Made by a program: the position numbers and the translations under genes. Shown here piece by piece: positions 20,740-41,787 of a stretch of DNA of 64,000 nt. Below the pieces are notes generated by a model. It was not told the origin of the DNA, ran no database searches, and was given only the letters and a program-made list of their open reading frames with translations. Source of the stretch: Patescibacteria group bacterium (GTDB lineage Bacteria; Patescibacteriota; Microgenomatia; UBA1406; GWC2-37-13); the NCBI GenBank assembly GCA_026004455.1, contig BPJE01000002.1:131207-195206 (forward strand), in the 5' to 3' direction. The stretch's first letter is position 1. The number at the start of each line of letters is the position of its first letter.

Positions 20740-21381
20740 ATGATTGATTTATTTTTTCAAAACCCAATCTCATTTTTAATCTATATTGTTGCTTTATTTT
20801 TTACTATTTCTATCCATGAGTTTGCTCATGCTTGGACAGCTGATTTTCTTGGTGACCCAACTCCAAGGCTTCAAGGCAGGCTAAATCTCAACCCAAAATC
20901 TCATCTTGATCCAGCAGGACTACTATTTTTAGTTTTCTTTGGCTTTGGTTGGGGTAAACCAGTTGAGTTTGATCCTTATAACCTAAAAAATCCCAGACGC
21001 GATGCTGCTATAATTGCTTTAGCCGGTCCTTTATCAAATTTTATTTTGGCTTTATTACTCTCTATAATTTTCAGATTGTTTATATTTTTTGATTATCAAA
21101 TTTTAATAACTATCGGATATATTTTTTTTATTCCTCTTATTCAAATCAATGTAATTTTAGGCGCTTTTAATCTTTTACCAATTCATCCCTTAGATGGTTT
21201 TAAAATTGTTGGTGGAGTTTTATCAGATGATCAAGCAAAAGAATGGTACTCTTTACAAAAATATGGTTTTCTATTTTTGCTTTTGCTAATTATTCCAATT
21301 ACCGGATCATCAATGCTTGATACTGTATTAAAACCAATTGTTAATTTTTTTATCAATATATTAATTCCTAAAATTTATTGA
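20740..21381 (+). CDS. site-2 protease family protein (M50)
   Basis: ISIHEFAHAWTADFLGDPTPRLQGRLNLNPKSHLDPAGLL; NLLPIHPLDG. Confidence 0.95.
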   Translation: MIDLFFQNPISFLIYIVALFFTISIHEFAHAWTADFLGDPTPRLQGRLNLNPKSHLDPAGLLFLVFFGFGWGKPVEFDPYNLKNPRRDAAIIALAGPLSNFILALLLSIIFRLFIFFDYQILITIGYIFFIPLIQINVILGAFNLLPIHPLDGFKIVGGVLSDDQAKEWYSLQKYGFLFLLLLIIPITGSSMLDTVLKPIVNFFINILIPKIY

Positions 21382-21998
21382 GGTTGAGTTGGGGTTAGTT
21401 TCTTTATACAAAGAAAATAGTCTTGAGTATTACAACCTTTTCCTAATTTTTCTTTAATTTTTTGACAATTAGTTTCGTTACAAACTAAAGCAATTGTTGG
21501 AGAAGGTTGACTTGCATTATTATCATCAATTCTTAATCTTTGAATTGGTGAAGGCTTAGAAGTAACTTGTCGAATTATTTGAGTTGGTGATGGTGATGGT
21601 GTTGAAGGCTGACTTTTCTCTACTCCTTTAGTAGTAAATGACCAAGGCACACCGCCATTATCGTATCTTTTTTCACCAATTCTTATAGTAAAGTAATAAG
21701 TAGTTGATGGAGAAAGTAAAGTCAAATCAACTGAGTGATTTTTCTCTTTAGTTGCCTCTGGTGCAAAAAAATTCAAAGCAGTTGGCGAAGTCCCATATTC
21801 AATAATTCCTTGTGTCTCAAGTCCAGTTGACCAAGAAATTGTCACTGAGTTTTTTTCAATATTGGAGACTACCACATCTCGAGGTTCCATATCAGAAGCT
21901 CTTGTGCCAAAAATTCGAAAACTAAAAATAGTAATTAAAATAAATAAAACAATTCCAATAATAATCGCAAAAATTTTTTTGATTTTTTGAGTATCCAT
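21375..21998 (-). CDS. fibronectin type III-like domain protein, membrane anchored
   Basis: NIEKNSVTISWSTGLETQGIIEYGTSPTAL...LSPSTTYYFTIRIG. Confidence 0.8.
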   Translation of the reverse strand: MDTQKIKKIFAIIIGIVLFILITIFSFRIFGTRASDMEPRDVVVSNIEKNSVTISWSTGLETQGIIEYGTSPTALNFFAPEATKEKNHSVDLTLLSPSTTYYFTIRIGEKRYDNGGVPWSFTTKGVEKSQPSTPSPSPTQIIRQVTSKPSPIQRLRIDDNNASQPSPTIALVCNETNCQKIKEKLGKGCNTQDYFLCIKKLTPTQPQ

Positions 21999-22001
21999 AA
22001 A

Positions 22002-22685
22002 TTAAACAACTAATCTTAATAACCCTCCAATTAATAATAATATTACTCCTGGTATAGAAAATTTTACTACATTTTCAAAAATTCCTGTTTTTGGTAAAGT
22101 TGAATTAGTTGGAGTTGGATAAATTAAATTAGAACTTTCAGCGTTATTATTACTTGTGTTATTGGTATTATTTGTATTGTTTGTATTATCTTCTTTAACC
22201 GAAATAGAAATACTTGGGTTTTGTCCACAATCTAAAATATTAGTGGTGTCAATATCTGCTTTAACAATTTTAGACGAAGAACAATTTAAACTAATAGTAG
22301 TTGATCCACTATTTTTTGTCTTAAAATTTATTGTAGCAATTGTTCCTGATCCTGTTTTTGTTACACCTGGATCATCAACCATTCCAGCAATATATATTTG
22401 ATTATCGGTTGAAGTTTCTTTAATAACAGTTGGAAAAAAACCACCGTTACTAACTGATTCAACTTGAAGATAATTTGCATCATAATTAAGATATATATCA
22501 GTCGATCTTACTTCATCATTACCTACATCAATATTTACTTGCAGAGAAAAAATTTCATTATTATTAACAGAAATATTTGTTTTATCAAAATTTATTATTG
22601 CCGCAAAAACAATACCTTCTCTCAAAAAAGGGAGAAAAAAAAGAAAGAAAAAAATAATTGTAATTTCATAAAAAATTTTTTTCAT
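22002..22685 (-). CDS. cohesin-domain surface protein with C-terminal LPKTG-like signal
   Basis: INFDKTNISVNNNEIFSLQVNIDVGNDEVRSTDIYLNYDANYLQVESVSNGGFF; C-term TLPKTGIFENVVKFSIPGVILLLIGGLLRLVV. Confidence 0.82.
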   Translation of the reverse strand: MKKIFYEITIIFFFLFFLPFLREGIVFAAIINFDKTNISVNNNEIFSLQVNIDVGNDEVRSTDIYLNYDANYLQVESVSNGGFFPTVIKETSTDNQIYIAGMVDDPGVTKTGSGTIATINFKTKNSGSTTISLNCSSSKIVKADIDTTNILDCGQNPSISISVKEDNTNNTNNTNNTSNNNAESSNLIYPTPTNSTLPKTGIFENVVKFSIPGVILLLIGGLLRLVV

Positions 22686-22815
22686 TAATTTTAATGATAA
22701 AAAAAATTTTTGGATAAATCAATTTTTTCTAGTTTTTATCTTTAATTTAATAAAAAAAATAGATTTAATTAATTTTTATATTAAAAAATTTTATTAATTT
22801 CTTTATTAATAATTA

Positions 22816-23421
22816 TTACTTATTAAAAATTTTTAAACTTTCTGGCAATTTTGGATAAAAAACTTCGTTTTTTTCGTTAACAAAGAATGTCTTTCGATTT
22901 TTGTAATTAGAAACTATTTCTATACTAGAATTGATTTGATTTAAAGGTAAAAATTGAATTGTAATAATATCAGTTTGATTAAAATAAATAGGCTCATCTA
23001 TGTTTAAATTTTTAACTAAAGTTATATTTAAATAGTTATCACTTAAAGATGAATAACTAATAAATCGATTATCAACTGATTTAGCACTTAAAAATTTAAG
23101 ATTTTTTTTATCAAACTTTATTACTAACTCAAATCCAACCACTTGTTTATCTTCTGAACTAGCATTAATTACAATATTAAAAGGAGAATTTATAACAAAA
23201 TTTTTATTTTCTAACTTAAAGTTTAGATTACCTTTTGTTGGTGGAATAAAGATAGTTGGAGAAATAGTTTGCTTAGTAAAATTTTGTTTTTCTTCTTTTT
23301 TTAACCAAAAATTTTTTGAAAAAAAAATTAATATAAAAAGAAAAATAGTAATTAAAACAAAAAAAATCCCTCTTTTTTTATATTTATTAAATTGATTTTG
23401 ATTATTAATTTGTTCATTCAT
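22816..23421 (-). CDS. membrane-anchored cohesin-like domain protein
   Basis: FVINSPFNIVINASSEDKQVVGFELVIKFDKKNLKFLSAKSVDNRF. Confidence 0.7.
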   Translation of the reverse strand: MNEQINNQNQFNKYKKRGIFFVLITIFLFILIFFSKNFWLKKEEKQNFTKQTISPTIFIPPTKGNLNFKLENKNFVINSPFNIVINASSEDKQVVGFELVIKFDKKNLKFLSAKSVDNRFISYSSLSDNYLNITLVKNLNIDEPIYFNQTDIITIQFLPLNQINSSIEIVSNYKNRKTFFVNEKNEVFYPKLPESLKIFNK

Positions 23422-23465
23422 AGCAATTTCTAAAACTTATAAAATAAATTACTTTATTCTTTACT

Positions 23466-26201
23466 TTACTCTTCATCGTTTTTAATTGATAAAGCTGCAA
23501 TAACGGCTGAGTAATCTTGAGTGTCAACTTTTCCATCAAGATTTAAATCCGCAATAGCCAAAACTTGTTCATCTGTTTTTCCTAAATTATTACGTATATA
23601 TGAAATATCTAAAGCATCAACTACCCCATCTTGAGAACCATTTACTGGTAAATCGCCAACTAATAAATATATTTTTGAAAAATCCAAGATATTAACTCCT
23701 CCTGAAAGCGTAATTTTTCCAGCAAAACAACGATAAGTTCCTGGCCATGTTTCATTAGGATTATCATCACAAATTCTTTTTTGAATATGTTTTGGACCTT
23801 TAATTAAAATATAATAGTTTGATCCCGGAATAACTTCACTAGGAAGATTAAATGATTTCTCCCAAATAAATGGTTCTGTATCTTTATTACGATTATTAGT
23901 AATACTAAAATTTTCTTCAACAGAAACTGTTTGCGCTAAACTTCCTCCTCCAACTTTTATCTTTATTTTAAATGTTTTTTGATTATCTTCTTGTGGTTGT
24001 GTCATTATTCCTTGAAATTTCAATTTAAGATTTAGATTAACTAAATCTGAAGCAACAATGGTTGGTGTTGGAGTTTGAATTGGAGTGTTAGTAGCATTAG
24101 GACGAGGAGTTGCGGTTGGAGTTTGAATTGGAGTGTTAGTAGCATTAGGACGAGGAGTTGCGGTTGGAGTTTGAATTGGAGTGTTAGTAGCATTAGGACG
24201 AGGAGTTGCAGTTGGTGAATTGTTTGCAGGCGTAGGAGTTGCAGTTGGTGAATTGTTTGCAGGCGTAGGAGTTGCAGTTGGTGAATTGTTTGCAGGCGTA
24301 GGAGTTAGTGTAGGAGTTAAAATGTTAATTAATTCTGAAGTAATCTCTACCCATGCTAGAGTTTGTTTTCCAGAAGCATCATAATTATCTGGTAAATTAA
24401 GCCAATCTTGATCTGCGTATGTATTAAACCAACCATTAGCTGGAATTGTTTTGTTTAAAGTTGCAATTAATTGACCATTAGTTTTTCCAGCGCCATTTGA
24501 GGCACTGTAAACTTTAATAGTTACATTAGCCTGAGAATTATTTGGGTTTACTAAAAAAATATCATTCCATTGAGTATTACTCGTTTGACCTATTGGCCAA
24601 TTTCTAGCAATAACAGTTGAATAAAAAGTTTGCGATTTTTGAGATATTAAATTAGTATCAAATAAAGACAAAGATGGACTATTATATTGATTACCTTGAT
24701 TTAAACGAAAACGATTAGTGCCAATGATTGGAACATTTGAATTAATCTCTACCCATGCTAGAGTTTGTTTTCCAGAAGCATCATAATTATCTGGTAAATT
24801 AAGCCAATCTTGATCTGCGTATGTATTAAACCAACCATTAGCTGGAATTGTTTTGTTTAAAGTTGCAATTAATTGACCATTAGTTTTTCCAGCGCCATTT
24901 GAGGCACTGTAAACTTTAATAGTTACATTAGCCTGAGAATTATTTGGGTTTACTAAAAAAATATCATTCCATTGAGTATTACTCGTTTGACCTATTGGCC
25001 AATTTCTAGCAATAACAGTTGAATAAAAAGTTTGCGATTTTTGAGATATTAAATTAGTATCAAATAAAGACAAAGATGGACTATTATATTGATTACCTTG
25101 ATTTAAACGAAAACGATTAGTGCCAATGATTGGAACATTTGAATTAATCTCTACCCATGCTAGAGTTTGTTTTCCAGAAGCATCATAATTATCTGGTAAA
25201 TTAAGCCAATCTTGATCTGCGTATGTATTAAACCAACCATTAGCTGGAATTGTTTTGTTTAAAGTTGCAATTAATTGACCATTAGTTTTTCCAGCGCCAT
25301 TTGAGGCACTGTAAACTTTAATAGTTACATTAGCCTGAGAATTATTTGGGTTTACTAAAAAAATATCATTCCATTGAGTATTACTCGTTTGACCTATTGG
25401 CCAATTTCTAGCAATAACAGTTGAATAAAAAGTTTGCGATTTTTGAGATATTAAATTAGTATCAAATAAAGACAAAGATGGACTATTATATTGATTACCT
25501 TGATTTAAACGAAAACGATTAGTGCCAATGATTGGAACATTTGAATTAATCTCTACCCATGCTAGAGTTTGTTTTCCAGAAGCATCATAATTATCTGGTA
25601 AATTAAGCCAATCTTGATCTGCGTATGTATTAAACCAACCATTAGCTGGAATTGTTTTGTTTAAAGTTGCAATTAATTGACCATTAGTTTTTCCAGCGCC
25701 ATTTGAGGCACTGTAAACTTTAATAGTTACATTAGCCTGAGAATTATTTGGGTTTACTAAAAAAATATCATTCCATTGAGTATTACTCGTTTGACCTATT
25801 GGCCAATTTCTAGCAATAACAGTTGAATAAAAAGTTTGCGATTTTTGAGATATTAAATTAGTATCAAATAAAGACAAAGATGGACTATTATATTGATTAC
25901 CTTGATTTAAACGAAAACGATTAGTGCCAATGATTAAAGCTGGTGAAGATGAATAATTGACACAGGAACATAGAGATGCATTTCCTACTTGAATATTTCC
26001 ACATATTAAACCATCAGGGCAATCTCCACCACATATTCCATTAGCAGTTGAACCACATGGATAGCTTGCTTTTGATTTGTAAAGATTTTTATTTATATAA
26101 ACAAAAAATAATAAAACGGAAATTAAGCCGATAAAAACTATTATTAATATTTTGATATTATTTAATTTTTTAAAAAAAGAAATTATATTATTATAAATCA
26201 T
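23466..26201 (-). CDS. surface protein: four 134-aa repeats, PT-rich linkers, C-terminal dockerin-like domain
   Basis: Four copies of IIGTNRFRLNQGNQYNSPSLSLFDTN...; C-term DGVVDALDISYIRNNLG and ADLNLDGKVDTQDYSAVIAAL dockerin-type Ca-binding repeats. Confidence 0.88.
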   Translation of the reverse strand: MIYNNIISFFKKLNNIKILIIVFIGLISVLLFFVYINKNLYKSKASYPCGSTANGICGGDCPDGLICGNIQVGNASLCSCVNYSSSPALIIGTNRFRLNQGNQYNSPSLSLFDTNLISQKSQTFYSTVIARNWPIGQTSNTQWNDIFLVNPNNSQANVTIKVYSASNGAGKTNGQLIATLNKTIPANGWFNTYADQDWLNLPDNYDASGKQTLAWVEINSNVPIIGTNRFRLNQGNQYNSPSLSLFDTNLISQKSQTFYSTVIARNWPIGQTSNTQWNDIFLVNPNNSQANVTIKVYSASNGAGKTNGQLIATLNKTIPANGWFNTYADQDWLNLPDNYDASGKQTLAWVEINSNVPIIGTNRFRLNQGNQYNSPSLSLFDTNLISQKSQTFYSTVIARNWPIGQTSNTQWNDIFLVNPNNSQANVTIKVYSASNGAGKTNGQLIATLNKTIPANGWFNTYADQDWLNLPDNYDASGKQTLAWVEINSNVPIIGTNRFRLNQGNQYNSPSLSLFDTNLISQKSQTFYSTVIARNWPIGQTSNTQWNDIFLVNPNNSQANVTIKVYSASNGAGKTNGQLIATLNKTIPANGWFNTYADQDWLNLPDNYDASGKQTLAWVEITSELINILTPTLTPTPANNSPTATPTPANNSPTATPTPANNSPTATPRPNATNTPIQTPTATPRPNATNTPIQTPTATPRPNATNTPIQTPTPTIVASDLVNLNLKLKFQGIMTQPQEDNQKTFKIKIKVGGGSLAQTVSVEENFSITNNRNKDTEPFIWEKSFNLPSEVIPGSNYYILIKGPKHIQKRICDDNPNETWPGTYRCFAGKITLSGGVNILDFSKIYLLVGDLPVNGSQDGVVDALDISYIRNNLGKTDEQVLAIADLNLDGKVDTQDYSAVIAALSIKNDEE
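24337..25944. repeat. four tandem 402-bp direct repeats
   Basis: Unit boundaries at 24337, 24739, 25141, 25543, read as essentially identical. Confidence 0.95.
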
Positions 26202-27043
26202 AAAAAATCAAAAAATTTTATAACAATTTCAGAGTACTTACCCAATCCTATACCAATATATAATTTTTTATTCTCAAAAAATTTTGAACTTTTATCTTGA
26301 TTTTCAAATAATCTTATTTTATATAAATTTAAATTTTTATTCTTCTCTATTTTTGAATCAAATCTTTTATTATCATAATTAACAAAATTATTCTTATCAT
26401 AAAAAAATAAATAATCTTTGTCAATATCTATTAATAAAATAAATTCATAAACAGATTCCTCCTTGCTTCTTAAGGGAATCTTTATGCAAATATTACATTC
26501 TTTATTATCGTTTTTGATCTGAATATCTAATCTTTTTTCACTATCAATTCCAAAATATATTTCTTTTAACCCAACCCACCACTTATAATCACTTTCTCCT
26601 AATTTGCTAGCAAAAGAAATACCCCCACCTTCTTTTCCATTTGTATTAAAAACAATTCTTACTGCAAATAAATTATCTAATTTTATTGGAAATTTATCAT
26701 CTACATTATTAAACCAAATATTAGAATTATTTTTTATACGCAATAATTTATTTTTATAATAATATTCAACATTCTTTTTATTTTTAATTAAACTCTCAAT
26801 TATGTTAATTTTACTTTTAAGATTTAACTCGTTGTTTTCATATTTTTCTATTATTCTATCAACACTATTGAAAATCATTTCTCTTTCTTGAATTAAACTA
26901 TATTCTTTAACTAGATCATTCGAATAATGATTATCTTTATTAAAAATAGTATTATTATTTGTAATTAAAGTTGATAGAATATAACTTGCATATAATATTA
27001 AAAGAATTAAAATAAAAAAATCTTTTTTTTTATCATTAATCAT
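26198..27043 (-). CDS. hypothetical membrane-anchored protein
   Basis: N-terminal TM then globular region IWFNNVDDKFPIKLDNLFAVRIVFNTNGKEGGGISF. Confidence 0.6.
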   Translation of the reverse strand: MINDKKKDFFILILLILYASYILSTLITNNNTIFNKDNHYSNDLVKEYSLIQEREMIFNSVDRIIEKYENNELNLKSKINIIESLIKNKKNVEYYYKNKLLRIKNNSNIWFNNVDDKFPIKLDNLFAVRIVFNTNGKEGGGISFASKLGESDYKWWVGLKEIYFGIDSEKRLDIQIKNDNKECNICIKIPLRSKEESVYEFILLIDIDKDYLFFYDKNNFVNYDNKRFDSKIEKNKNLNLYKIRLFENQDKSSKFFENKKLYIGIGLGKYSEIVIKFFDFL

Positions 27044-27051: not shown

Positions 27052-28473
27052 ATGAGTGAAAAAAATAATTTTATTTATCAATACTTAATTATATTATTTT
27101 TTTTATTTTTCACTTTAATTTTTAATCCAAATAATAAAATATTTTTTTTACATTCAATTATTTTTTGTTTTGTATTATTTATTTTGAATAGACATAAAAT
27201 TGCACCTGCTTTATTTATTTCATTCTTTATTACTTCATATTTACCTATCGGAAAAAAATTTATTTATCAAATATTAGATTTAAGTTATTTTTCATATCTT
27301 AAAGAAGAATATCCTTTAGGTCTTGTTGAAGAAATATCCCTAAATATAAGCGATATTTTTTTTATTTTTATTTTATTTCACTTAGCAAGAGATGTGTTTA
27401 TAAAAAAAATTAATATTTTTAAATTATTTAATAAAGCATTATTATTTCTTAGCGTTTTTATAATAATGTCAATAATTTCATCTATTATTAAATCGCCAAA
27501 CTTTTTATTTTCACTATATAAATTATCTTTTTTTATAAAAATTTTAGTTATCTATTTTTATTTAAAAGTAAATTCCAAAAGTTTATCTAAAAGAAATTTT
27601 ATTGACCTAATTATTATAATCGCTTTTTTTCAATCTTATCTAGCTATTTTGCAATTTTTTAATAACGCTCCTTTTGGAAAATCAATTGAAAGTATTCATA
27701 ATATTGAAATATTTGGAAAAGTAGTTGATGAATTTTATTTTTATTATCGACCTACTGGTACATTTCAACACGCAAATTTTTTAGGTGGATTTTTATTAAT
27801 TGCAATTTCATTAATAATTTATAATATTTTTTACCTTAAAACAAGAAATTTTTTTACATTAATTACATTAATTATCTCATTAATAACTCTATTAATCACA
27901 TTAAGCAGGTCATCTTTTTATTCTCTAATACTTTTTTTGTTTTTGATTATAATAAGTGAAAGAAAAAGAATAAGTTCTTTAGTTATAAAATTAAAAAAAA
28001 TAAATAAAATCTTAATTTGTATAATTTTATTTTTCATCACTATTGTTTTTTCAGTCCCTTTGTTTAGATTGTTAAATATCTTTGCTGCTTTTTCGTCCTC
28101 AGGCGGATTTTATACAAGATTTAATCAAGCTATAGAAACTTTTAAATTAATTTTATTAAATCCTATTTTTGGTGTAGGTCCAGGATTTTCTGTTGTTGAA
28201 GCAATAAAAATCAATCCTAACGGGATTTTTTCTTCTTTTCCATCATCAGTTCACAACTTTTATTTACTAACTGCTGTTGAAAATGGATTAATCGCATTTT
28301 TCTTTTTCTTTTTATTTTTATTTTTTCTATTAAAAGATTTATTATTAAAAGAAAAAATTATAAGTTTTGTTTTAATTTCTGCTATTTTTTATGGTCTTTT
28401 TCAACCAACAATAATAATCTCAGAATTATTTTTTCTTTATGCTATAATTAAAAAAAATGAAAAATATTTTTAA
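27052..28473 (+). CDS. O-antigen ligase/polymerase family membrane protein
   Basis: Multi-TM; RPTGTFQHANFLGGFLLIAISLIIY; GVGPGFSVVEA...SSVHNFYLLTAVENGLIAF. Confidence 0.88.
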   Translation: MSEKNNFIYQYLIILFFLFFTLIFNPNNKIFFLHSIIFCFVLFILNRHKIAPALFISFFITSYLPIGKKFIYQILDLSYFSYLKEEYPLGLVEEISLNISDIFFIFILFHLARDVFIKKINIFKLFNKALLFLSVFIIMSIISSIIKSPNFLFSLYKLSFFIKILVIYFYLKVNSKSLSKRNFIDLIIIIAFFQSYLAILQFFNNAPFGKSIESIHNIEIFGKVVDEFYFYYRPTGTFQHANFLGGFLLIAISLIIYNIFYLKTRNFFTLITLIISLITLLITLSRSSFYSLILFLFLIIISERKRISSLVIKLKKINKILICIILFFITIVFSVPLFRLLNIFAAFSSSGGFYTRFNQAIETFKLILLNPIFGVGPGFSVVEAIKINPNGIFSSFPSSVHNFYLLTAVENGLIAFFFFFLFLFFLLKDLLLKEKIISFVLISAIFYGLFQPTIIISELFFLYAIIKKNEKYF

Positions 28474-29281
28474 ATTAAAATTTAAAAAAATAACTTTTTT
28501 AGATTTGTTTATTTTTCTAGCATTATTATCTTTATTTATTTTTCTATTCATAAGATTATTTAGAAAATCAGAATTCTTAGATATTGTTTTAAAAATATAT
28601 CAAGATGAATGGTTTATTGAAAAATTAAAACCAGGAATTAAAGAAAAAAATATAATGGGACAAACAATGGCAGAACTTATAAATATAAAAACTTATCCAA
28701 CTTCAGATCAAAAAAAGTGGGCTCATCTTCGAATAAAATTAAAAGCTGTTTATACTCCCGGTGACAATTCTTACACTTATAAAAATAAAAAAATTCTTAT
28801 TGGAAATAATCTTGAATTTTATATGAATAATCTTTTAATAGATGGCACAGTTTTGAAAATAAACGATAAAAAAAATAAAAACCAATTTAAAATTTACGCT
28901 AAAGGACAAATAATTGATATCAATCCTGCATTTCCTAATACTGAAGGAGTATCAGAATATTTAGCAAATTCAATTAAAGAACACGAAATAATGAAAGACT
29001 CTCTTGGTTCACCTGTTATTGAAATCAAAAAAAAAGAGGTCTTTGACGCAAAAATGGTTACAGTAGATCAATATGGAAACACGAAAATATCTGTAAATCC
29101 TTTAAGAAAAGATGTTTACCTTGATTTAATAATTTATGCTGACAAAATAGGTCAATATTATTATCTTTTTGGTGATGAAAACTTTCCAATAATCATTGGT
29201 AATGGAATTCCTTTTACTACTAAAAACAATTGGGTTTTTTTTACTATTACTAATATAGAAAAAATTGAGAATAATAAATGA
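28457..29281 (+). CDS. hypothetical membrane-anchored protein (DUF4330-like)
   Basis: N-terminal TM then soluble domain; position in polysaccharide operon. Confidence 0.45.
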   Translation: MKNIFKLKFKKITFLDLFIFLALLSLFIFLFIRLFRKSEFLDIVLKIYQDEWFIEKLKPGIKEKNIMGQTMAELINIKTYPTSDQKKWAHLRIKLKAVYTPGDNSYTYKNKKILIGNNLEFYMNNLLIDGTVLKINDKKNKNQFKIYAKGQIIDINPAFPNTEGVSEYLANSIKEHEIMKDSLGSPVIEIKKKEVFDAKMVTVDQYGNTKISVNPLRKDVYLDLIIYADKIGQYYYLFGDENFPIIIGNGIPFTTKNNWVFFTITNIEKIENNK

Positions 29282-30429
29282 AGGAAAAAGTTGTATTAAT
29301 ACCCTTACATTTGACACTAAATTATCCTTGTGATTATATTGATCAAACAGCAAAAATTTTATCTAAAAAAAATCTTGTTATTCTTTATGATTTTAATAAT
29401 CTAGTTTCTTGGAAAAAAATAATTAATTTAAAAAAACATTTTTTAATAATTAAAAAAAATCTTAAATTGATAAAAAATAAAAATAAAGGTATTGTATATT
29501 TTCAATCACCCGCTTTATTGCCATTTCAAAAAAATTCAATTATAAGCTCAGTTAATAAGTTATTAGGTTTTATTTTTATTTCTTTTTTATTATTTATTTT
29601 TAAAAAAAAATTAATTATCTGGCAGTTTTTTCCTCTAGCAACATCAAGATTAATTAAATTAATTTTTAATCAAAAATACATTTATGACTGTGTTGATTAT
29701 TTAGATATAGAAATTCATGGACAAAAAGTAATTAATGAAGAAAAAAAACTAATTAAATTAGCTGATTATATTGCTTTTAATTCCAAACCACTATACAAAA
29801 AAAAATTACTAGAAAATAAAATATTGAAAAATAAAAAAACAATTATTACTGTATGTGGTACTAATTATCCACTATTTAATCTAAAACCTGAGTTAAATAA
29901 AAACAATATCGCAATCATTTATGGTGTTTTAGATTATAGACTAAATACATTATTAATTTTAAAAACAATTAAAAAACTCTTTGACTGGCATTTTTACATT
30001 TTAGGGCCAATTCAAAAACAAGGGAGAGAGGCTATCTCAAATAATTTTTCTAAAATAATTCAACAAGAAAATGTGAAGTATTTTGGGCACATACCGAAAA
30101 ACAATCTTAAAGAATACTTAAAAAAAGCCAAAGTCGGACTTGTGCCATATAATACAAAATTTAACTTTGTTAAATATTCTAATCCAATGAAGGTTTACGA
30201 ATATCTTGCCGCTGGTATTCCCGTTGTTTCAACTAAAATATTATCCTTAGAAAAATATCCAAAAGATATTATTTTTACAACAAATAATGTTAATGACTTT
30301 ATTAATGCTATAAAAAGATTAACTAATGATTGGAATATCGAAAAAATAAAAAAAGCAAAAAAAATCGCTAAAAATAATAGTTGGGAAAATAAAATAAAAA
30401 TTATTCTTAAAAATATTAATATTAACTAA
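29278..30429 (+). CDS. glycosyltransferase (GT4/TuaH-like)
   Basis: YDCVDYLDIEIHG; VKYFGHIPKNNLKEYLKKAKVGLVPYNTKFNFVKYSNPMKVYEYLAAGIPVVST. Confidence 0.88.
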   Translation: MKEKVVLIPLHLTLNYPCDYIDQTAKILSKKNLVILYDFNNLVSWKKIINLKKHFLIIKKNLKLIKNKNKGIVYFQSPALLPFQKNSIISSVNKLLGFIFISFLLFIFKKKLIIWQFFPLATSRLIKLIFNQKYIYDCVDYLDIEIHGQKVINEEKKLIKLADYIAFNSKPLYKKKLLENKILKNKKTIITVCGTNYPLFNLKPELNKNNIAIIYGVLDYRLNTLLILKTIKKLFDWHFYILGPIQKQGREAISNNFSKIIQQENVKYFGHIPKNNLKEYLKKAKVGLVPYNTKFNFVKYSNPMKVYEYLAAGIPVVSTKILSLEKYPKDIIFTTNNVNDFINAIKRLTNDWNIEKIKKAKKIAKNNSWENKIKIILKNININ

Positions 30430-30430
30430 A

Positions 30431-30886
30431 ATGAAAATCGGAATTATTTCTTCACCAGGAGGACATATATTTCAGCTTATTCAAATAATGCCAATTTTAA
30501 AAAAATTCGATAGATTTTGGATAACAAAAAATGAAATAGATACTAAATATTATCTAAAAAAAGAAAAAATTTATTATGCCTTTTTCCCAGAATCAAGAAA
30601 TTTTATAAATCTAATTAAGAATACTTTTTTAGCTTTTAAAATATTAAAAAAAGAAAAACCAAAAATATTAATTAGTAGCGGTGCTGGAATTGCCATACCA
30701 TTTTTTATTGTTGGTAAAATATTTTTTAAAACTAAGTTAGTATTCATAGAACCTTATGACTTCGTGGCATATCCATCATTAACAGGTAAAATTTTGTATA
30801 ATTTAGTTGATCTCTTTATAATTCAAAATAAAATTCAAAAAAAATGGTACAAGAAAGCAATATTATTAGAAAATCTAATATTTTGA
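30431..30886 (+). CDS. Alg14/PssD-like glycosyltransferase subunit
   Basis: MKIGIISSPGGHIFQLIQIMP; PKILISSGAGIAIPFFIVGKIFFKTKLVFIE. Confidence 0.85.
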   Translation: MKIGIISSPGGHIFQLIQIMPILKKFDRFWITKNEIDTKYYLKKEKIYYAFFPESRNFINLIKNTFLAFKILKKEKPKILISSGAGIAIPFFIVGKIFFKTKLVFIEPYDFVAYPSLTGKILYNLVDLFIIQNKIQKKWYKKAILLENLIF

Positions 30887-31329
30887 TCACTTTTGGTTTA
30901 ACTAATTTTAAATTCAATAGATTAATAGACAGTCTAAAAAAATTAAATATCTTTGAAAAAGAAAATAAACTATCACCAGAAGTATTTATTTATTTTATAA
31001 AAAATTCAAAAAAAATTATATCTCACGCTGGTCCGGGCACAATATATTTAATAACAAAAAATGCAAAATATATGCCATTAATTATTCCAAGAATGGCTAA
31101 ATTTAAAGAACACGTAGATGATCATCAAGTCTTTTTTGCCAAATTTTTAAGAAAAAAATTGCCTAAAAAATTAAAAAAATATATTGTTATAAAAGAAAAC
31201 ATAGATAAAGACTTAATAAATTATTTGAAAGAAAAACCAAAAAAAAATATTTTAAAAAAATATTTATTTAATAAATCCAAAAATTCTAAATCTAAAATAA
31301 TTTTTAATCAATTAATTAAAAATCTTTAA
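30844..31329 (+). CDS. Alg13/PssE-like glycosyltransferase subunit
   Basis: ILITFGLTNFKFNRLIDSL; KKIISHAGPGTIYLITKNAKYMPLIIPR...EHVDDHQVFFAKFL. Confidence 0.82.
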   Translation: MVQESNIIRKSNILITFGLTNFKFNRLIDSLKKLNIFEKENKLSPEVFIYFIKNSKKIISHAGPGTIYLITKNAKYMPLIIPRMAKFKEHVDDHQVFFAKFLRKKLPKKLKKYIVIKENIDKDLINYLKEKPKKNILKKYLFNKSKNSKSKIIFNQLIKNL

Positions 31330-31330
31330 T

Positions 31331-32461
31331 ATGAATCTTTTATTTCTAGCTAATGTAAACACTGCTGGAGAATGGTTGGCTCAACAAAATTTAATTGAAT
31401 ATTTAAATAAAGAAAATAAAAAGTTTAAATTTTATTTAATCAGCGAAGAACCTATTAATAAAAAAATTGTTAATAATAATTTATTCGAAAAAATAATTTA
31501 TATAAAACAAATAAAAACAAATAAACCGTTTAAAGAATATAAAAAAATCTTTAATTTTATATTTGAGTCTTATAAATCAATTAAAAAAATTGACAGAAAT
31601 TACAAAATTAACAAAGTAATTATTTCACATTACCTTTTTGCTATTCCCTATTTATTTTATTCAAAAAAAAATAACTATATTTTTTGGTTTCATGGAATAA
31701 AAAATAATTATTTTATTTTTAAAGATACCACTAATCACTACTTAATATTTTTAAAAATATTAGAAAACCTTTCTTTGTTTTTAGCAAAAAAAATAATAAT
31801 ACCCACAAATTATAGTTATAATCTTATTAAAAAACTTTGCTTTCTCTTTTTTAAAATTAATAAATCAAAAACTATTATTTTAAACAATCTAATAAATAAA
31901 TTATTCTTAAAAAAACAAAAAAATATTAGAAAAAAAAAACTCATTCTATATTCAGGAAGACTAGTTTTTAAAAAAGGAGTTGAAAATTTAATTTTAGCCT
32001 TTAAAAAAGCTTCAATTATTTATAAAAATTGGAATCTTTTAATAATCTATCCTAAAACTAAAAACGAAGATGAAGATAAAATATTAAAAAAATACAAAAA
32101 ATGTAAAAACATTATATTTAAGAAAGATTTATCAATAAATATTATTAGAAAATATTATCAACAAGCAAAATTAGCTATTCTTCCTTCATATTTGGAAAAT
32201 GACTCTCTTTTTTTAAAAGAAGCAATTTTTATGAATCTACCAATTTTTTCTACTAAAACAGGCAGCGCCTTAGAACTTTTAAATAATAAATTTTTCTTAA
32301 ATGATAACAAACCTTTTACCATAGAAAAAAAAATAACTTCTTTTATAAATAATCAAGATTATTATAATAATGAATTTGTTAAAATTATTAATAATTTTAA
32401 ATCTAATTATAAAACAAAAGAAATAATTAATAAATTTATTCAAATAATTTATGAAAATTAA
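31331..32461 (+). CDS. family 4 glycosyltransferase
   Basis: LILYSGRLVFKKGVENLILAFKKASIIYKNWNLLII; ILPSYLENDSLFLKEAIFMNLPIFSTKTG. Confidence 0.85.
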   Translation: MNLLFLANVNTAGEWLAQQNLIEYLNKENKKFKFYLISEEPINKKIVNNNLFEKIIYIKQIKTNKPFKEYKKIFNFIFESYKSIKKIDRNYKINKVIISHYLFAIPYLFYSKKNNYIFWFHGIKNNYFIFKDTTNHYLIFLKILENLSLFLAKKIIIPTNYSYNLIKKLCFLFFKINKSKTIILNNLINKLFLKKQKNIRKKKLILYSGRLVFKKGVENLILAFKKASIIYKNWNLLIIYPKTKNEDEDKILKKYKKCKNIIFKKDLSINIIRKYYQQAKLAILPSYLENDSLFLKEAIFMNLPIFSTKTGSALELLNNKFFLNDNKPFTIEKKITSFINNQDYYNNEFVKIINNFKSNYKTKEIINKFIQIIYEN

Positions 32462-32768
32462 AAATATTAATGATGATTTTAAACAATTAGAAAATCAAAT
32501 AGAAGAAGGCCTCGTCACTGCTCATGAATATAAAAACCCAAATATTTTTTTACCTTATAATCCTTTATTTCAGATAATAAAAAAAATTTATCTAAAAATT
32601 TTAAGTATGTATACAAAATATCAAATTGTTTTTAATAAAAATTTATTTTACTCAACTTACAAAACATATCAATATATTTTACAATTAAAATCTGAATTAA
32701 AAAAACAAAAAGAAGAAATCGCTTTATTAAAAAAACAAATAAAAAATCTTATAAAATCAAATAAATGA
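32451..32768 (+). CDS. hypothetical coiled-coil protein
   Basis: 105 aa in operon; C-term LKSELKKQKEEIALLKKQIKNLIK. Confidence 0.5.
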   Translation: MKIKNINDDFKQLENQIEEGLVTAHEYKNPNIFLPYNPLFQIIKKIYLKILSMYTKYQIVFNKNLFYSTYKTYQYILQLKSELKKQKEEIALLKKQIKNLIKSNK

Positions 32769-33943
32769 AAAAAATCGCTATTGTTACTTATCATTATTTT
32801 AAAACAAAAACAAGAGGAGGAGAAATCTATACTAAAAAATTGACTAATATTTTAAAAGATAAATACCAAACTACAATTTTAACAACTAGATCAGCTGATC
32901 ACACAACTTGGAAGAATAAACTTAAAGAATATGAAGTAGATAATAAAAATAAAATCATTAGATTTAAGATAGATTTTGAAGTCAAACCTAGAAACAGAAT
33001 TGAGAAAACAATTAATATTTTAAATAATAAATTAAGAGCATTCAAAGATGAATTAAATTATTTAAAAACGATTGGTCCTTATTCTTCTAGTCTTTTTAAT
33101 TTTTTATCAAAAAACAAAGAAAATTTTGATATTTTTATTTTTATTGGCTATGCCAATCCCATAACCTATTTTGGTCTCCCGTTGGTAAAAGAAAAATCAA
33201 TCCTTATTCCTCTTACCCATAAAGAACCAATTTTATATCTAAGTATTTTTGATGAATTATTTAAACAACCTAAAATTATTGGTTTTTCTAGTGTTGGAGA
33301 AAAAGAGATTATCAAAAAAAGATTTAAAAAACTACCAAAACTTGTTCAAATTGGAATATATCCAGAAGAATTTAAATCAAAAATTAATTTTCAATTCATT
33401 AAAAATAGATATAATCTCTTTAATCCTTATGTATTATTCATAGGAAGAACAGAACCTTATAAAGGCATATATGATCTAATTGACTTTTTTCTTAAATTTA
33501 AATCTGCTGAAAAAAATGATATAGATTTAGTAATTATTGGCGAAAAATTATTTCCTATTAAAACAAATAAGAATATTAAATTCTTAGGAATATTGTCAGA
33601 AGAAGAAAAAACTATACTGATTAAAAATTCCCTATTTTTAGTTAATCCTTCGTGGTATGAATCATTATCATTAACAGTTCTTGAGGCTTGGCAACAAAAA
33701 AAACCCGTTTTAGTTTATGGTTTAAATCATGTATTAAAAAGACAAATAGAATTGTCAAAAGGCGGTCTATTTTATGAAAATTATAATGATTTTGTCTTAA
33801 AAATGAATGATTTAATAAAGTATAAGAAAAAAAAGCAAAAACTTGGAGAAAATGGATTTAGATTTTACTTAAATAATTACAAAAAAGAAATCGTAAAAGA
33901 AAAACTTATAAATATTATTGAAAATTTTAATAATTTTAAATAA
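32765..33943 (+). CDS. family 4 glycosyltransferase
   Basis: TRGGEIYTKKLTNILKD; YVLFIGRTEPYKGIYDLIDFFLKF; NPSWYESLSLTVLEAWQQKKPVLVYG. Confidence 0.9.
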   Translation: MKKIAIVTYHYFKTKTRGGEIYTKKLTNILKDKYQTTILTTRSADHTTWKNKLKEYEVDNKNKIIRFKIDFEVKPRNRIEKTINILNNKLRAFKDELNYLKTIGPYSSSLFNFLSKNKENFDIFIFIGYANPITYFGLPLVKEKSILIPLTHKEPILYLSIFDELFKQPKIIGFSSVGEKEIIKKRFKKLPKLVQIGIYPEEFKSKINFQFIKNRYNLFNPYVLFIGRTEPYKGIYDLIDFFLKFKSAEKNDIDLVIIGEKLFPIKTNKNIKFLGILSEEEKTILIKNSLFLVNPSWYESLSLTVLEAWQQKKPVLVYGLNHVLKRQIELSKGGLFYENYNDFVLKMNDLIKYKKKKQKLGENGFRFYLNNYKKEIVKEKLINIIENFNNFK

Positions 33944-34604
33944 CATATCTTTCCTTAATTAATAAAATTGAACCGCCTTTAGCAATAGAATTAATTTGAG
34001 AATGATAAAAATTAACTAATTTTTCTTTAATATATAAATTTTCTTCAACATCTAATGTTTGAGAAAAATTTATTTTTTTAAAGTTATAAATCATATAAGG
34101 CCACTCTAAATAGTAGATTATATTTTTTCTTTTAATTTTTTTTTCTAAATTTTTTCTTATAAAAATATGATCTATATTACCTAAACCGTATGGTAAAAAA
34201 ATACAGTAATCAACATTTTCCCCAATTATTTTTTCAATTTCTTTATTTATTTTTTCTTGTAATAATGTATCTTTTAAATATATATCAGTTTTTTTTCTTT
34301 GAAATATAAATTCTTTAAACCCTAAATGATAAAATTTAATTTTTAAAAAATTACATACATTTATATCCTCTCTAATTCTCTGTTGATAAAGATCTTTAAA
34401 ATTCTTAAAACCAGTTTTCTTAAGAAAATTTAAGCCTTCTTTATTAGTTAAATAATCGTTATAACCCGTAAAAACAGTAATTAAATTTACATCACTTAAC
34501 TTTCTTAATGTATATATTAAAGCTCCACAAGAAAAAATTGCATCATCTAAATGAGGAGAAATTAGGTATAATTTTTTATTTAATAATTGATTTAATAAAT
34601 TCAT
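33936..34604 (-). CDS. PIG-L/LmbE-family deacetylase
   Basis: LYLISPHLDDAIFSCGALIYTLRK...VFTGY; DHIFIRKNL. Confidence 0.88.
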   Translation of the reverse strand: MNLLNQLLNKKLYLISPHLDDAIFSCGALIYTLRKLSDVNLITVFTGYNDYLTNKEGLNFLKKTGFKNFKDLYQQRIREDINVCNFLKIKFYHLGFKEFIFQRKKTDIYLKDTLLQEKINKEIEKIIGENVDYCIFLPYGLGNIDHIFIRKNLEKKIKRKNIIYYLEWPYMIYNFKKINFSQTLDVEENLYIKEKLVNFYHSQINSIAKGGSILLIKERYVI

Positions 34605-35649
34605 GAAAGTTTTTATTTTAAAAAAAATTTATAAAAAATTACAATGTCCTTGGTGTTATTCAAATTTTAGATTAATTGATAATAAAAACTATTATTTTTT
34701 AAAATGTCAATGTGATGTTTTTCCAATTATTGAAAATCAAATCTTGTATCTCAAAAAAGATAAAGTAAAAAAGAAACTCTTTAAAAAATTAGAAAATAAC
34801 AGTTCTTTTTTACATTACTTTGCATTTTCTTTAATATCTAAAATTTTATTTAGATTTAGTTTTCTAATTAATTTTATAAAAAAATTCTCTTTTATAAAAC
34901 TAATTTATTTTTTTAAAACCTTGGGATATAACAAATTATACGCAAAATATTTAATTGAAAGAAAAAAAATCCCTTCTTATTTCATATCTTTAATCTTAAA
35001 TCAATTAATAAAAAATAAAAAAAATAATTTAATTCTTGATTTTGGTGGCGGTTTTGGCCATATTGCAAAAAAATTTCCTAAAAAACCATTAAAAATTATC
35101 ATTGATAAAGATTTTTTAAGCTTATATTTTAATCTAAATAGAAAAAATAAAAATTTTTTTTATATTTGTTACGAATTTAAAAAAAATATACCGATTAAAA
35201 ATAAAAGCATTGATAATTTTGTATTCTCTGATGGCTTCTGTAATATTAAAAATCAATTTTTATTTTTAAAAGAAATTAAAAGAATAATAAAAAATAATAG
35301 TCCTGGTTATATATCTCAAATTTTATCTAAAAAAGTAAAAACATTTAAGGAATATAATCTATCAAATCCCAAAACAATAGAAAAATACCTAAAAAAATTA
35401 AAATTTAATAATTTTAAAATCATTCCTTCTTCAATAATTTGGCATAATTTAAAAAATAAACAAATTTTAAATTTAAATAAAAATTTTGTTTTGAAAAATA
35501 AAAGAATTTATAATATTATTATTTTTCCTAATAAAATAAAAAATTTAAAAATAGATTTAGTATTTAATTTATACAAAAAAACAAAAATTAATTTTTATCA
35601 AGATAATGATTTATTATCAGATTTAAAAAGTGATTATAAATATGAGTAA
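34603..35649 (+). CDS. SAM-dependent methyltransferase with N-terminal Trm112-like zinc ribbon
   Basis: LQCPWCYSNFRLIDNKNYYFLKCQCDVFPIIENQILYL; LILDFGGGFGHIAKKFP. Confidence 0.8.
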   Translation: MKVFILKKIYKKLQCPWCYSNFRLIDNKNYYFLKCQCDVFPIIENQILYLKKDKVKKKLFKKLENNSSFLHYFAFSLISKILFRFSFLINFIKKFSFIKLIYFFKTLGYNKLYAKYLIERKKIPSYFISLILNQLIKNKKNNLILDFGGGFGHIAKKFPKKPLKIIIDKDFLSLYFNLNRKNKNFFYICYEFKKNIPIKNKSIDNFVFSDGFCNIKNQFLFLKEIKRIIKNNSPGYISQILSKKVKTFKEYNLSNPKTIEKYLKKLKFNNFKIIPSSIIWHNLKNKQILNLNKNFVLKNKRIYNIIIFPNKIKNLKIDLVFNLYKKTKINFYQDNDLLSDLKSDYKYE

Positions 35650-36412
35650 AAAATTAAAACTTTATTTTCAATTACTTGAAGTTTTAACAATAAGAGAATT
35701 AAAATCTAGATATAGAGCCTCAATTTTGGGTCCTTTATGGATAATTATCCAACCTTTATTGACAACCTTATTTTTAGCTGTAGTTTTTGAAAAAATTGTA
35801 AAAATTAAAATAAATAATATTCCTTATTTTTTATTTTTATATTCAGGAATAATGGTATGGAATTTTTTTGAGCAAAGCATAAATTTAGCAAAAGAATCTT
35901 TAGTTTGGAATCGAGATCTTATCACAAAATCAAAATTTAATAAAGAAGTTCTACCAATCTCTTATGTTTTATCTAAAATAATCGATTATCTTGTTAATTT
36001 TTTGGTATTTTTAATACTATTAATTATCTATCATTTTAAAATCAAATTACTATTCTTTATTACAATTTTTAATTTATTTCCTCTTTTTTTAACAGTAACT
36101 TCTGTAAGTCTTATTTTTTCAGCTTTAAACGCTATTTTTAGAGATTTTGGTAGAATTATTGAATTCATTTTGCTTTTAGGTTTTTATGCTACTCCAATTA
36201 TCTATTCTGAAAATATGATCCCAGAAAAAATAAAAATATTTATTCAAATCAATCCACTTTCTTATATTATAAATTTTAATAGACAGGTTTTTTTTGAAAA
36301 TAAAGTTGATTATTATAATTTATTTTTACCTGCAATTTTTGGAGTTATTTTTTTTATTATCTCATGGCTAATTTTCAAAAAATTAGAAAAAAAAATTGTT
36401 GATTTAATATGA
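35630..36412 (+). CDS. polysaccharide ABC transporter permease (Wzm-like)
   Basis: LEVLTIRELKSRYRASILGPLWIIIQPLLTTLFLAVVFEKI; ABC-2 type topology. Confidence 0.93.
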   Translation: MIINMSKKLKLYFQLLEVLTIRELKSRYRASILGPLWIIIQPLLTTLFLAVVFEKIVKIKINNIPYFLFLYSGIMVWNFFEQSINLAKESLVWNRDLITKSKFNKEVLPISYVLSKIIDYLVNFLVFLILLIIYHFKIKLLFFITIFNLFPLFLTVTSVSLIFSALNAIFRDFGRIIEFILLLGFYATPIIYSENMIPEKIKIFIQINPLSYIINFNRQVFFENKVDYYNLFLPAIFGVIFFIISWLIFKKLEKKIVDLI

Positions 36413-37092
36413 AAAACAATCAACCGGCAGTAATAATAGATAAAATCACTAAAGAATACTATCTAGAAAAACCAAAAACTCTTAAAACATGGTTTAAAAA
36501 TATATTTTCTCCTTTTAAAAAATACCCTGTTTTTAAAGATTTTTCTTTAAAGATCAATAAAGGCGAAGCAGTAATAATAACTGGCCCAAATGGTTCAGGC
36601 AAAACAACACTGTTAAAGTTGATCGCTGGCATTACCTTCCCAGATAAAGGAAAAATACAAACTTTCGGCAAAGTTGTTCCATTAATTGAACTTGGCGCAG
36701 GATTTAATTATGAGTTAACAGGCTTAGAAAATATCTGGATAAATGGAACGATATTGGGAATTGAAAAAGAAAAATTAGTCAAATTAATTCCTAAAATCAT
36801 TGATTTTTCTGAACTTAATGATTTTATTAATATACCTCTCAAGCGTTACTCAACTGGAATGATTACAAGATTGGCTTTTTCAATAGCAGTATATTCTGAG
36901 GCTGATATATTTCTTCTTGATGAAGTTTTTGCAGTAGGAGATGAAAAATTTCAAAGGAAATCAATTAATTATATTAACAAGTTCTTAGAAAGAAAAAAAA
37001 CTTTAATTCTAAGTACAAATATTAATATTAAAAAATTTATTACTTATTTTAAAAAAATAAACAAAAATATTATTTCAGTTGAATTAAATTAA
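36409..37092 (+). CDS. polysaccharide ABC transporter ATP-binding protein (Wzt-like)
   Basis: ITGPNGSGKTTLLKLIAGI; RYSTGMITRLAFSIAVYSEADIFLLDEVFAVGD. Confidence 0.94.
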   Translation: MKNNQPAVIIDKITKEYYLEKPKTLKTWFKNIFSPFKKYPVFKDFSLKINKGEAVIITGPNGSGKTTLLKLIAGITFPDKGKIQTFGKVVPLIELGAGFNYELTGLENIWINGTILGIEKEKLVKLIPKIIDFSELNDFINIPLKRYSTGMITRLAFSIAVYSEADIFLLDEVFAVGDEKFQRKSINYINKFLERKKTLILSTNINIKKFITYFKKINKNIISVELN

Positions 37093-38300
37093 TAAAATAT
37101 TTTTCCCAATTGTATTCCGAAAGCAATTTTTTTTTATTTTTGCTTAAATATCTTTTCATTTCTATAATAATTTTTTTATTTTTAACAACATTAATAAGTT
37201 TTTTTTCTAAATCTAATAAATTACTAAACAAAAATCCATTTTTTTTTATCAATTATATAATCTTTTGCTCCACTATTATAATAAGCAAATACAGGAGTAC
37301 CATTTATTAATGATTCAATAGATGAAAAACTAAATGTTTCTAATTCAAAACTACTTAAAATAGTAATATCAATATTTTTGTAAAAAAAAGCTAAATTTGA
37401 AGGATTATTAATAAAAAAAATATTATTACCTAAATTTAATTCATCAATTTCTTTAATAATTTTTAAAAAATAATTCATATTTAAATTAACAAAAGGAGTG
37501 AAAATAAATAGAATTATTTTCTGATTTAATGATAAAACTTTTCTAAAAACTTTTAGAACTTCAATAATTTTTTTTCTTGGTTCTAATCTTTGAAAAATTC
37601 CTATTTTTAAATAAAATTTGTTAGAAAAAAAATTATTATCAATTAATTCATTATTTTCAAAATTAGGAATTCCCGGTTTTAATAAAATTACTTTATTAGG
37701 ATTTAATTTATAAAATTCTAAAAATTCTTTTTTAGAGTAATTACTTAAAACAATAATTTTATCGCTTAATGAAAAGATAAATTTTGATAAATACTTTCTA
37801 AAAAAAAATTTAATCCAAATAATAATAAACCTTATTTTTTTTACAATAAAAATTGACTTATTAAAATTTAAATCAAATATTTCTTCTGATAAACGCTCTC
37901 TATCATAAAATCCATGAAATTGAAAATAAAATCTATCATTTTCATTTTTAAATATATGAAAAAAAGGTAAAAATAAAGAAGATTTTACCGTATTAAATAA
38001 AAAAATTGTTTTTTCTTTTTTTGATAGATTTATTATTTTTTTAATAATAAAATAAAAAAAACTATTTAAAAATATTTCAATATAAGAAATTAAATTTGAA
38101 AAATTAATTAATATAAAATGTATCTTAATATTAGAATAACTTTTAAAATCTTTAATAAATTTTAAATAAGTATTTTTGTCTCCATAAAAAACGATTTCTA
38201 TTCTAATTTTTTTAAATTTATTGCAATTAAAACTAATTAAATTATTTAAATATGTTTCTATTCCACCATGATATACATCTGTAAAGAAAATTATCTTCAT
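37070..38300 (-). pseudogene. family 4 glycosyltransferase split at an A9 tract (~37238-37246)
   Basis: ORF 37224-38318 ends ...AKDYIIDKKKWIFV*, while ORF 37070-37252 supplies KNGFLFSNLLDLEKKL..., the expected GT4 C-terminus. Confidence 0.82.
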
Positions 38301-39304
38301 AAAAATAAATCTGTCCAAATTCTAACTGCTTTTTTTAATTTTAAAAAATAATCTTTTTGTTGAAAAACTCTTGAAGAAAAATCAATTTTATCAAATAATT
38401 CTAAATAAGCTTCTTTTAAATCTTTTTTTGTTAGTTTAACTTTTGCTACTTCTTTGTAAAGATATTCATTAACTATCATTCCTAATCTTTCTTTTTCTAA
38501 ATTTAACTTAACATCTGAGGCCTTACGATGCTCAATAAAAGGAATTCCATTAACAACGCTTAAATTTAAATGATCTAACACTTTCTTGGCGAAAATACCA
38601 GCCCAAATATCGTCATAGCGATCAAAAGACCACTTATTACCATCTTTATCATATCCCATCATGGGAAAAAATAAAATTGGTGTTATTTTTGCTTTAAAAG
38701 CAAAGTTCATTGAGCATAATGGAAAGAAAAAATCTTTAGGAATAAACTGTCGATAATTTTCTGATAAAATTGGTTCATTTAAGTTTTTTATTTTTATCTC
38801 ACTTTTCGCATCTAAATCAAGTTTATTAGTCCACAGACCATGAGACAGGACAACTTCACTTTTATTTCTTATTTTATAGGGAAACCCTCTCGTAAAAGGA
38901 ATTCTTTTATGAGGATAAGTAGAAAACCAATTATCAATAGGTGCTTTTAAATTTAAATTTTTTATATGTTGATTTAAAAAATTTTGATTTTTAATTGGAT
39001 AACAATCATCATCTAAAGTAACAATAATATCTGCGCCCATTTGATAAGCTTTTAAAAAACCATAAATTCTAATTCCAGCATTTTTTCTAGGAATAATCCA
39101 TGAATTATCTTTTAATTCATTATCTATATCTTTCCAAGTATAGTGATAAACTTTTTTAAAATATTTAATCGGTGTTTTAATTTTCTTTACCGGTGAATCT
39201 TCAACTATAACTCCATAAATTTTCTTAAACTTACTCCCCCAAAATTCTAAAAAATCTAAATCTCTAATAGTTGGAATTACTAAAAAAATTTTATTTTTCT
39301 CCAT
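38297..39304 (-). CDS. reversibly glycosylated polypeptide / UDP-arabinopyranose mutase-like protein (GT75-like)
   Basis: VTLDDDCYP; FTRGFPYKIRNKSEVVLSHGLWTNKLDLDA; FFPLCSMNFAFKAKITPILFFPMMG; FDRYDDIWAGIFAKKVLDHLNL. Confidence 0.8.
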   Translation of the reverse strand: MEKNKIFLVIPTIRDLDFLEFWGSKFKKIYGVIVEDSPVKKIKTPIKYFKKVYHYTWKDIDNELKDNSWIIPRKNAGIRIYGFLKAYQMGADIIVTLDDDCYPIKNQNFLNQHIKNLNLKAPIDNWFSTYPHKRIPFTRGFPYKIRNKSEVVLSHGLWTNKLDLDAKSEIKIKNLNEPILSENYRQFIPKDFFFPLCSMNFAFKAKITPILFFPMMGYDKDGNKWSFDRYDDIWAGIFAKKVLDHLNLSVVNGIPFIEHRKASDVKLNLEKERLGMIVNEYLYKEVAKVKLTKKDLKEAYLELFDKIDFSSRVFQQKDYFLKLKKAVRIWTDLFL

Positions 39305-41470: not shown

Positions 41471-41490
41471 AAATTGTAATATTTTTAAGA

Positions 41491-41787
41491 TTATATCACT
41501 TTCATTAATCTAAATAAAAGAAGACTAATAAAATAAAAAAGTACTACTTGAAAAATCGACAGATAAAGAGTTAAAAAAATTGCCACAATTGTTAGTATAA
41601 AAAAAGCTTCATTATGAATTGAAGGAAGAACGCCTTTTGTAAAAAGAATCAAAACAACTAAAGTAAAAAGTGATCGTTTATCAAACCACCAAAGCGGCCA
41701 ATTAAAATACATAGCTAAAACTAAAATAATAGATGTTAAAAAAAGAAAAATTTCTTTAGTATCAAAATAAAATGGCCCTATATACAT
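41491..41787 (-). CDS. small membrane protein, paralogue of 41964-42263
   Basis: 98 aa, three or more TM segments; shared N-terminal FYFD(T/E)K(E/D)I motif. Confidence 0.6.
   Translation of the reverse strand: MYIGPFYFDTKEIFLFLTSIILVLAMYFNWPLWWFDKRSLFTLVVLILFTKGVLPSIHNEAFFILTIVAIFLTLYLSIFQVVLFYFISLLLFRLMKVI

Follow-up and report, generated by a model that had tools for sequence, protein, structure and literature searches.

A conserved cohesin and X-dockerin operon in Candidatus Roizmanbacteria, a probable scaffold for protein display at the cell surface

Positions 22002-26201 of a 64,000-nucleotide stretch of DNA (the window; contig BPJE01000002.1 of assembly GCA_026004455.1, positions 131,207 to 195,206) are wholly occupied by three genes on the minus strand, encoding two cohesins, P1 and P2, and a dockerin protein, P3. 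An earlier note had read these genes as a cohesin-dockerin cluster in a likely candidate phyla radiation (CPR) genome, possibly forming a self-contained surface-display or host-attachment assembly and not a cellulosome, and had suggested searches with hidden Markov models (HMMs), for further dockerin genes and for a sortase. The genome (895 kb in 5 contigs, 92% complete) is indeed that of a CPR bacterium, being assigned to Candidatus (Ca.) Roizmanbacteria within the Microgenomates. By computation we established which domains the proteins contain, how they are predicted to fold, which Ca2+ ligands are conserved, how the operon is built and distributed, and which architectures occur; the cluster itself was confirmed, through Pfam matches in P1 and P3 and by profile and fold for P2.

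P1, the product of cohS (22002-22685, minus strand), consists of a signal peptide, a cohesin domain (PF00963, residues 38-145), an LPKTG sortase-type motif (residues 197-201; 22083-22097, minus strand) and a C-terminal transmembrane (TM) segment, the ending that the earlier note had described. In the HMM search its match to Pfam Cohesin scored above the cut-off (35.0 vs. 24.1 bits, E 2e-8), and across the cohS family (n=49) the LP of the LPxTG motif is kept in at least 90% of sequences and the G in all 49. P2, the product of cohM (22816-23421, minus strand), has the N-terminal anchor predicted for the second cohesin, a TM helix at residues 10-39, followed by a cohesin domain at residues 62-200. 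The Pfam cohesin model gave no match to P2, and pairwise BLAST found no similarity between P2 and either P1 or the cohesin-like protein of a second locus described below; family profiles were required in both cases. The cohM family (54 sequences) aligned to the LPxTG cohesin family with 98.6% probability in hhalign (E 5e-16), and the top seven matches of the P2 profile to PDB sequences were all cohesins, with weak scores (E 0.003-0.006). The AlphaFold2 (AF2) model, with a predicted local distance difference test score (pLDDT) of 90.6, comprises the N-terminal helix and a beta sandwich, for which all 50 Foldseek matches listed against the PDB were cohesins, headed by one from Clostridium perfringens (2vo8, E 1.3e-9, prob 1.00). 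It is because of the profile-profile match, the PDB profile matches and the modelled fold that we identify P2 as a cohesin by profile and predicted fold.

P3 is a 911-aa protein (23466-26201, minus strand, as are all features named here). It begins with a hydrophobic segment (26091-26153), either a signal peptide, for which 'SKA|S' is a possible cleavage site, or a signal anchor, and continues through a Cys-containing segment, four tandem 402-bp (134-aa) repeats (24336-25935) and a Thr/Pro-rich linker of 33-bp and 48-bp repeats (24067-24306) to an X-module and a dockerin. Copies 2-4 of the 402-bp repeat are identical and copy 1 is off by 1 nt; this near-perfect repetition, together with the repeats in the linker, suggests a recent change of copy number in a surface protein. 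A database search for a function of the 134-aa repeat returned no match. Relatives of the repeat occur in 3 other genomes of the order, and in genome G061 it lies within a cohesin-like gene directly upstream of an X-dockerin (XDoc) gene.

The paired dockerin C-terminus noted earlier proved to be genuine. The dockerin (23490-23657) has two Ca2+-binding EF-hand loops, seen in the alignment, and matches Dockerin_1 (PF00404) over residues 857-904 with 31.9 bits against a cut-off of 22.9. The ligand positions of loop 2 (D; N/D; D/N; D/E) are conserved in 71/71 relatives; for loop 1, conservation at the positions examined extends to at least 66 of these 71. The X-module (23658-24041) is, from alignment, AF2 and PDB matches, a beta sandwich with a conserved KGPKHxQKKIC...YxC motif. 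Modelled as one C-terminal unit of about 190 residues, the two modules gave a pLDDT of 92.9 and a predicted TM-score (pTM) of 0.88. Foldseek gave five significant matches in the PDB, namely 5m0y, 5k39, 4u3s, 2b59 and 4fl4, all of them chains that include an XDoc from type II systems for cellulosome anchoring; the first four have E-values of 4e-7 to 4e-6 and TM-scores, by target, of 0.58-0.64. The C-terminus of P3 is thus predicted to be a bimodular X-dockerin, with the X-module packed N-terminal to the dockerin.

A fourth gene (21375-21998, minus strand) completes the operon and encodes a protein with an N-terminal TM segment and an fn3 domain. In sister families the C-terminus of this protein has one or two EF-hand loops and resembles half a dockerin or a whole one; the Roizmanbacteria keep just the last helix of it (TQDYFLC in the window). 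With the X-dockerin of P3 as single query, matches were found in 68/83 genomes of the order, and the gene order around them is constant: XDoc, cohM, cohS, fn3, then genes for an M50 peptidase, L28, def, a glycosyltransferase and YchF. A same-strand cohesin gene lies immediately downstream of 76 of the 107 assessable XDoc genes (median gap 11.5 bp), and 24 of these pairs abut or overlap. The XDoc-cohM-cohS-fn3 block also recurs, complete or nearly so, in other families of the class (e.g. L171, L172, L176, L183, L189, L190, L197, L199, L200 and L203). Classwide, an X-dockerin profile matched 205/374 genomes at E<=1e-4, dockerin-half-only matches included, and an LPxTG-cohesin profile matched 257/357 at E<=1e-6. 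Named records bearing the X-dockerin are almost all Ca. Roizmanbacteria, and the sampled genomes of the phylum outside the class yielded no full-length X-dockerin, only dockerin parts or partial matches with weak E-values. A search of plasmid and phage collections gave zero matches; there is thus no sign of a mobile element.

Dockerins occur at only two places in the window's genome, and Pfam cohesins likewise at two. Since these are so few, and since dozens of genomes share the gene order, the cluster is not a product of chance. The second dockerin place (C2:119.6 kb) falls within a gene pair at C2:118646-120726 (L007:10647-12727), about 10.5-12.6 kb before the start of the window. Here a gene for a 196-aa membrane-anchored cohesin-like protein, with a weak match to the cohM family (E 5e-4), stands directly before a gene whose product has its X-dockerin at the N-terminus and a C-terminal domain of an unassigned kind; a lysozyme-like identity was considered for this domain and rejected, having no database support. 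Similar pairs occur in other genera (L101, L165, L167, L168 and L175), and the L167 XDoc protein has an amidase-like C-terminus (PHROG match, E 0.002). A trees-based test of whether XDoc and a long form of cohM duplicated as a unit recovered small groups in both trees with negligible support. Elsewhere in the genome (L010:9058-11354, near C1:325 kb) we observed another cohesin, of LPxSG type (PF00963, 39.5 bits), adjoining a protein that has a SpoIID domain and, probably, a coiled coil at its N-terminus. The idea of a self-contained assembly therefore holds only in part: a fourth gene belongs to the operon, XDoc occurs at a second locus, and the genome encodes one more cohesin of LPxTG type.

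Relatives of P3 carry other passengers. An N-terminal cohesin was found in 17/63 XDoc proteins by Pfam (E<=0.001) and in 40/72 by an iterated custom profile. Just upstream of the XDoc gene there is often a gene whose product terminates in a dockerin of a second kind, and the two features go together: an upstream dockerin accompanies 38 of the 46 XDoc proteins with a passenger cohesin and 12 of the 30 without one (Fisher p 2e-4). The window locus, with neither a passenger cohesin in P3 nor a dockerin encoded upstream, therefore appears to be a reduced form. The place taken in many relatives by the passenger-dockerin gene is occupied here by a gene for a 281-aa membrane-anchored protein (26198-27043, minus strand), without a dockerin and without a database match. 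Among the 63 XDoc proteins the recognizable passengers were M4 peptidases (5), DUF1554 (3), beta-helices (2) and CARDB (1). In the 80 other dockerin proteins they were CARDB, LamG, subtilase S8, CBM96, CBM60, beta-helix, Rhs, Hint and others, in one or a few proteins each. Overall, then, the passengers appear from their sequences to be peptidases, lectin-like domains, carbohydrate-binding modules (CBMs), beta-helices and Rhs repeats. Individual loci illustrate the range: XDoc proteins with thermolysin-like sequence at L053:6208-8631, L054:5874-8273 and L071:7535-10405 have a docked-peptidase arrangement. At L078:182-5108, an Rhs-repeat protein with a dockerin-like EF-hand pair at its end is encoded ahead of a second protein, which combines a cohesin-like domain, DUF5719-like repeats and a C-terminal EF-hand pair of its own; this arrangement lies directly upstream of an XDoc gene.

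We consider it likely that these genes encode a Ca2+-dependent cohesin-dockerin scaffold that displays proteins on the surface of the CPR cell. Export or anchor signals are present on the XDoc protein and on both cohesins, and we infer binding and its pairing, a location at the surface, and adhesion or host contact. The two anchored cohesins would be the sockets, cohM being held by its N-terminal TM helix and cohS by its C-terminal TM segment or by sortase linkage to the envelope. The X-dockerin at the C-terminus of exported P3 would plug into one of them, more probably cohM, and the N-terminal passenger, four repeats on a Thr/Pro stalk, would extend away from the cell and act in adhesion or ligand binding. 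In relatives, the cohesin on the XDoc protein may take the second dockerin from the upstream-encoded protein, giving a two-tier chain in the order effector-Doc, Coh-XDoc, anchored Coh. The choice of socket was addressed by a mirror-tree comparison of 26 loci, from which the distance of two neighbouring housekeeping genes was removed. Dockerin distances correlated with those of cohM (partial r 0.54, p 0.001), fn3 (0.46) and cohS (0.31, p 0.014), which favours cohM as the likelier partner without being decisive.

Several observations weigh against this interpretation. The other operon gene pairs also show positive correlations (partial r 0.31-0.46), making the mirror-tree result a modest one. 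The hydrophobic segment at the N-terminus of P3 might itself anchor the protein in the membrane without docking. The tail of P1 has the LPKTG motif and TM segment with no basic end, and its Gram_pos_anchor score of 15.0 falls below the cut-off of 20; the genome does encode the sortases that had been looked for, two of them. The custom profile finds more passenger cohesins than Pfam, so that some may be other beta-sandwiches, and the Fisher test ignores shared ancestry.

Type II X-dockerins consist of an X-module and a dockerin that act as a unit and dock to a surface-anchored cohesin, and in Ruminococcus flavefaciens a single surface-anchored cohesin, ScaE, receives an X-dockerin. The type II cellulosomal XDocs (2b59, 5k39, 5m0y, 4u3s) are the nearest structures to that of P3, and the adaptor proteins of relatives, with their cohesin(s) and C-terminal XDoc, are also alike, but sequence identity is 13-18%. 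Unlike the type II systems, the present one has few dockerin proteins per locus, no cellulases found and a conserved four-gene operon, and where cellulosome anchors use SLH domains, an N-terminal TM helix or an LPxTG tail is found here. The two-tier chain of relatives likewise resembles the cellulosomal adaptor and anchoring arrangement, but carries peptidases, lectins and CBMs in place of cellulases. ScaE and its X-dockerin (4iu3, 2zf9) share with our system the single anchored cohesin, whose structure is similar to P2, but these modules are of type III, serve a cellulosome and are less similar to P2 than are the type I/II and C. perfringens cohesins. The last of these, from the glycosidases GH84C/NagJ and a GH33 enzyme (2vo8, 2jh2), are the closest structures to P2 and are non-cellulosomal; there, however, the cohesin is part of a glycoside hydrolase (GH), whereas P2 is a membrane-anchored domain on its own, encoded next to the putative dockerin partner.

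Could the operon nevertheless serve a true cellulosome-like complex for polysaccharide degradation? The module types are the same, and PMC9123182 reports that cohesin and dockerin genes are expressed in Ca. Shapirobacterales, cites cellulosomes in a Roizmanbacterium (Geesink et al. 2020) and reads such genes as cellulosomal. These organisms belong to the same CPR supergroup, the Microgenomates, and have the same module types; the part of the source concerned gives no account of how the operon is organized, nor of an X-module, anchors or passengers. Our own literature search, mostly without subscription papers and preprints, found no description of the operon, the X-module or the two-tier arrangement. 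Some upstream dockerin proteins also carry CBM96, CBM60 or a beta-helix/pectinesterase match. The earlier note's view that this is not a cellulosome can, however, be extended to 143 dockerin proteins of this genome and its relatives (63 XDoc and 80 other), which are almost without carbohydrate-active catalytic domains. No cellulase catalytic domain is among the Pfam families listed for them, the only candidates being one WbsX domain and one weak pectinesterase match, and their catalytic domains are mostly peptidases (5 M4, 1 S8). The window's genome has two dockerin proteins in all, neither of them a cellulase or hemicellulase, and the sampled dockerin proteins already suggest that the class has no GH-dockerin fusions. 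Two XDoc proteins weakly match an NCBIfam model of a dockerin-bearing cellobiohydrolase (E 3e-4), presumably through the dockerin part. Nor was a scaffoldin with several cohesins and a CBM found: cohesins are single at the window locus and number at most three per XDoc protein in relatives. The components correspond to the arm by which a cellulosome is anchored to the cell, but scale, anchors and cargo differ, and we therefore read them as a display scaffold. A cellulosome seems to us very improbable, and the evidence argues against the earlier cellulosome reading of such Microgenomates genes.

The strongest rival is a general envelope role, in which cohesin and dockerin hold coat proteins to the membrane in an S-layer-like coat or wall anchor with no specific part in host contact. 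The wide distribution of the LPxTG-cohesin profile would fit this, as would the fixed, apparently vertically inherited chromosomal place beside the def, L28, M50 and YchF genes and the amidase-like domain on one second-locus XDoc protein. Yet passengers differ strongly among close relatives and the repeats of P3 have recently expanded, whereas coat proteins are usually uniform, and we regard this role as unlikely. The M4 and S8 peptidases, Rhs repeats and Hint domains on dockerin-bearing proteins of relatives might instead suggest a platform delivering extracellular proteases and toxin-like modules against a host or competitor; such cargo is confined to a minority of loci, with none in the operon of the window, and we give this idea little credence. 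Slightly less probable still is that the modules do not pair at all, their adjacency being historical and the cohesin folds and EF-hands serving other ends such as Ca2+ binding or rigid spacing. Non-cellulosomal dockerins have been proposed as stand-alone adhesins, the example being a giant Omnitrophota open reading frame (ORF) with nine dockerins (PMC10066038), but the tight, repeated adjacency in two locus types, the conserved Ca2+ ligands and the type II XDoc fold speak against it. Surface display remains the best reading of the cluster.

Some features of the surroundings may be added. A 98-aa three-TM protein (41491-41787, minus strand) has a homologue just upstream of the operon in about 22 relatives; in the window, a polysaccharide gene cluster (27052-42263) separates it from the operon, and a second gene (41964-42263), encoding 99 aa, is weakly similar to it. 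At 6435-7475 the GC content is about 53-56%, in surroundings of about 22-36%; this stretch contains a lipoprotein-like ORF and is possibly foreign DNA or an assembly chimera.

For the study of host attachment and surface organization in the CPR, a conserved operon whose binding chemistry is known, found in most of the genomes sampled from the order and recurring across the class, offers concrete, separately testable proteins. As the gene set recurs across the class with swappable cargo and no cellulases, it looks like a general scaffold for display at the cell surface, and host adhesion is a plausible function for a CPR bacterium. More tentatively, and with somewhat less than even confidence, we propose that a non-cellulolytic, two-tier, Ca2+-dependent scaffold is an ancestral core surface system of Microgenomatia, with passengers that are exchanged between species and mediate contact with hosts or partner cells. 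Our interpretation corrects the cellulosome reading, on the basis of which cellulose degradation has been attributed to CPR bacteria of groundwater. It would also carry the cohesin-dockerin principle over to bacteria with minimal genomes, where the passengers are peptidases, lectins and repeats.

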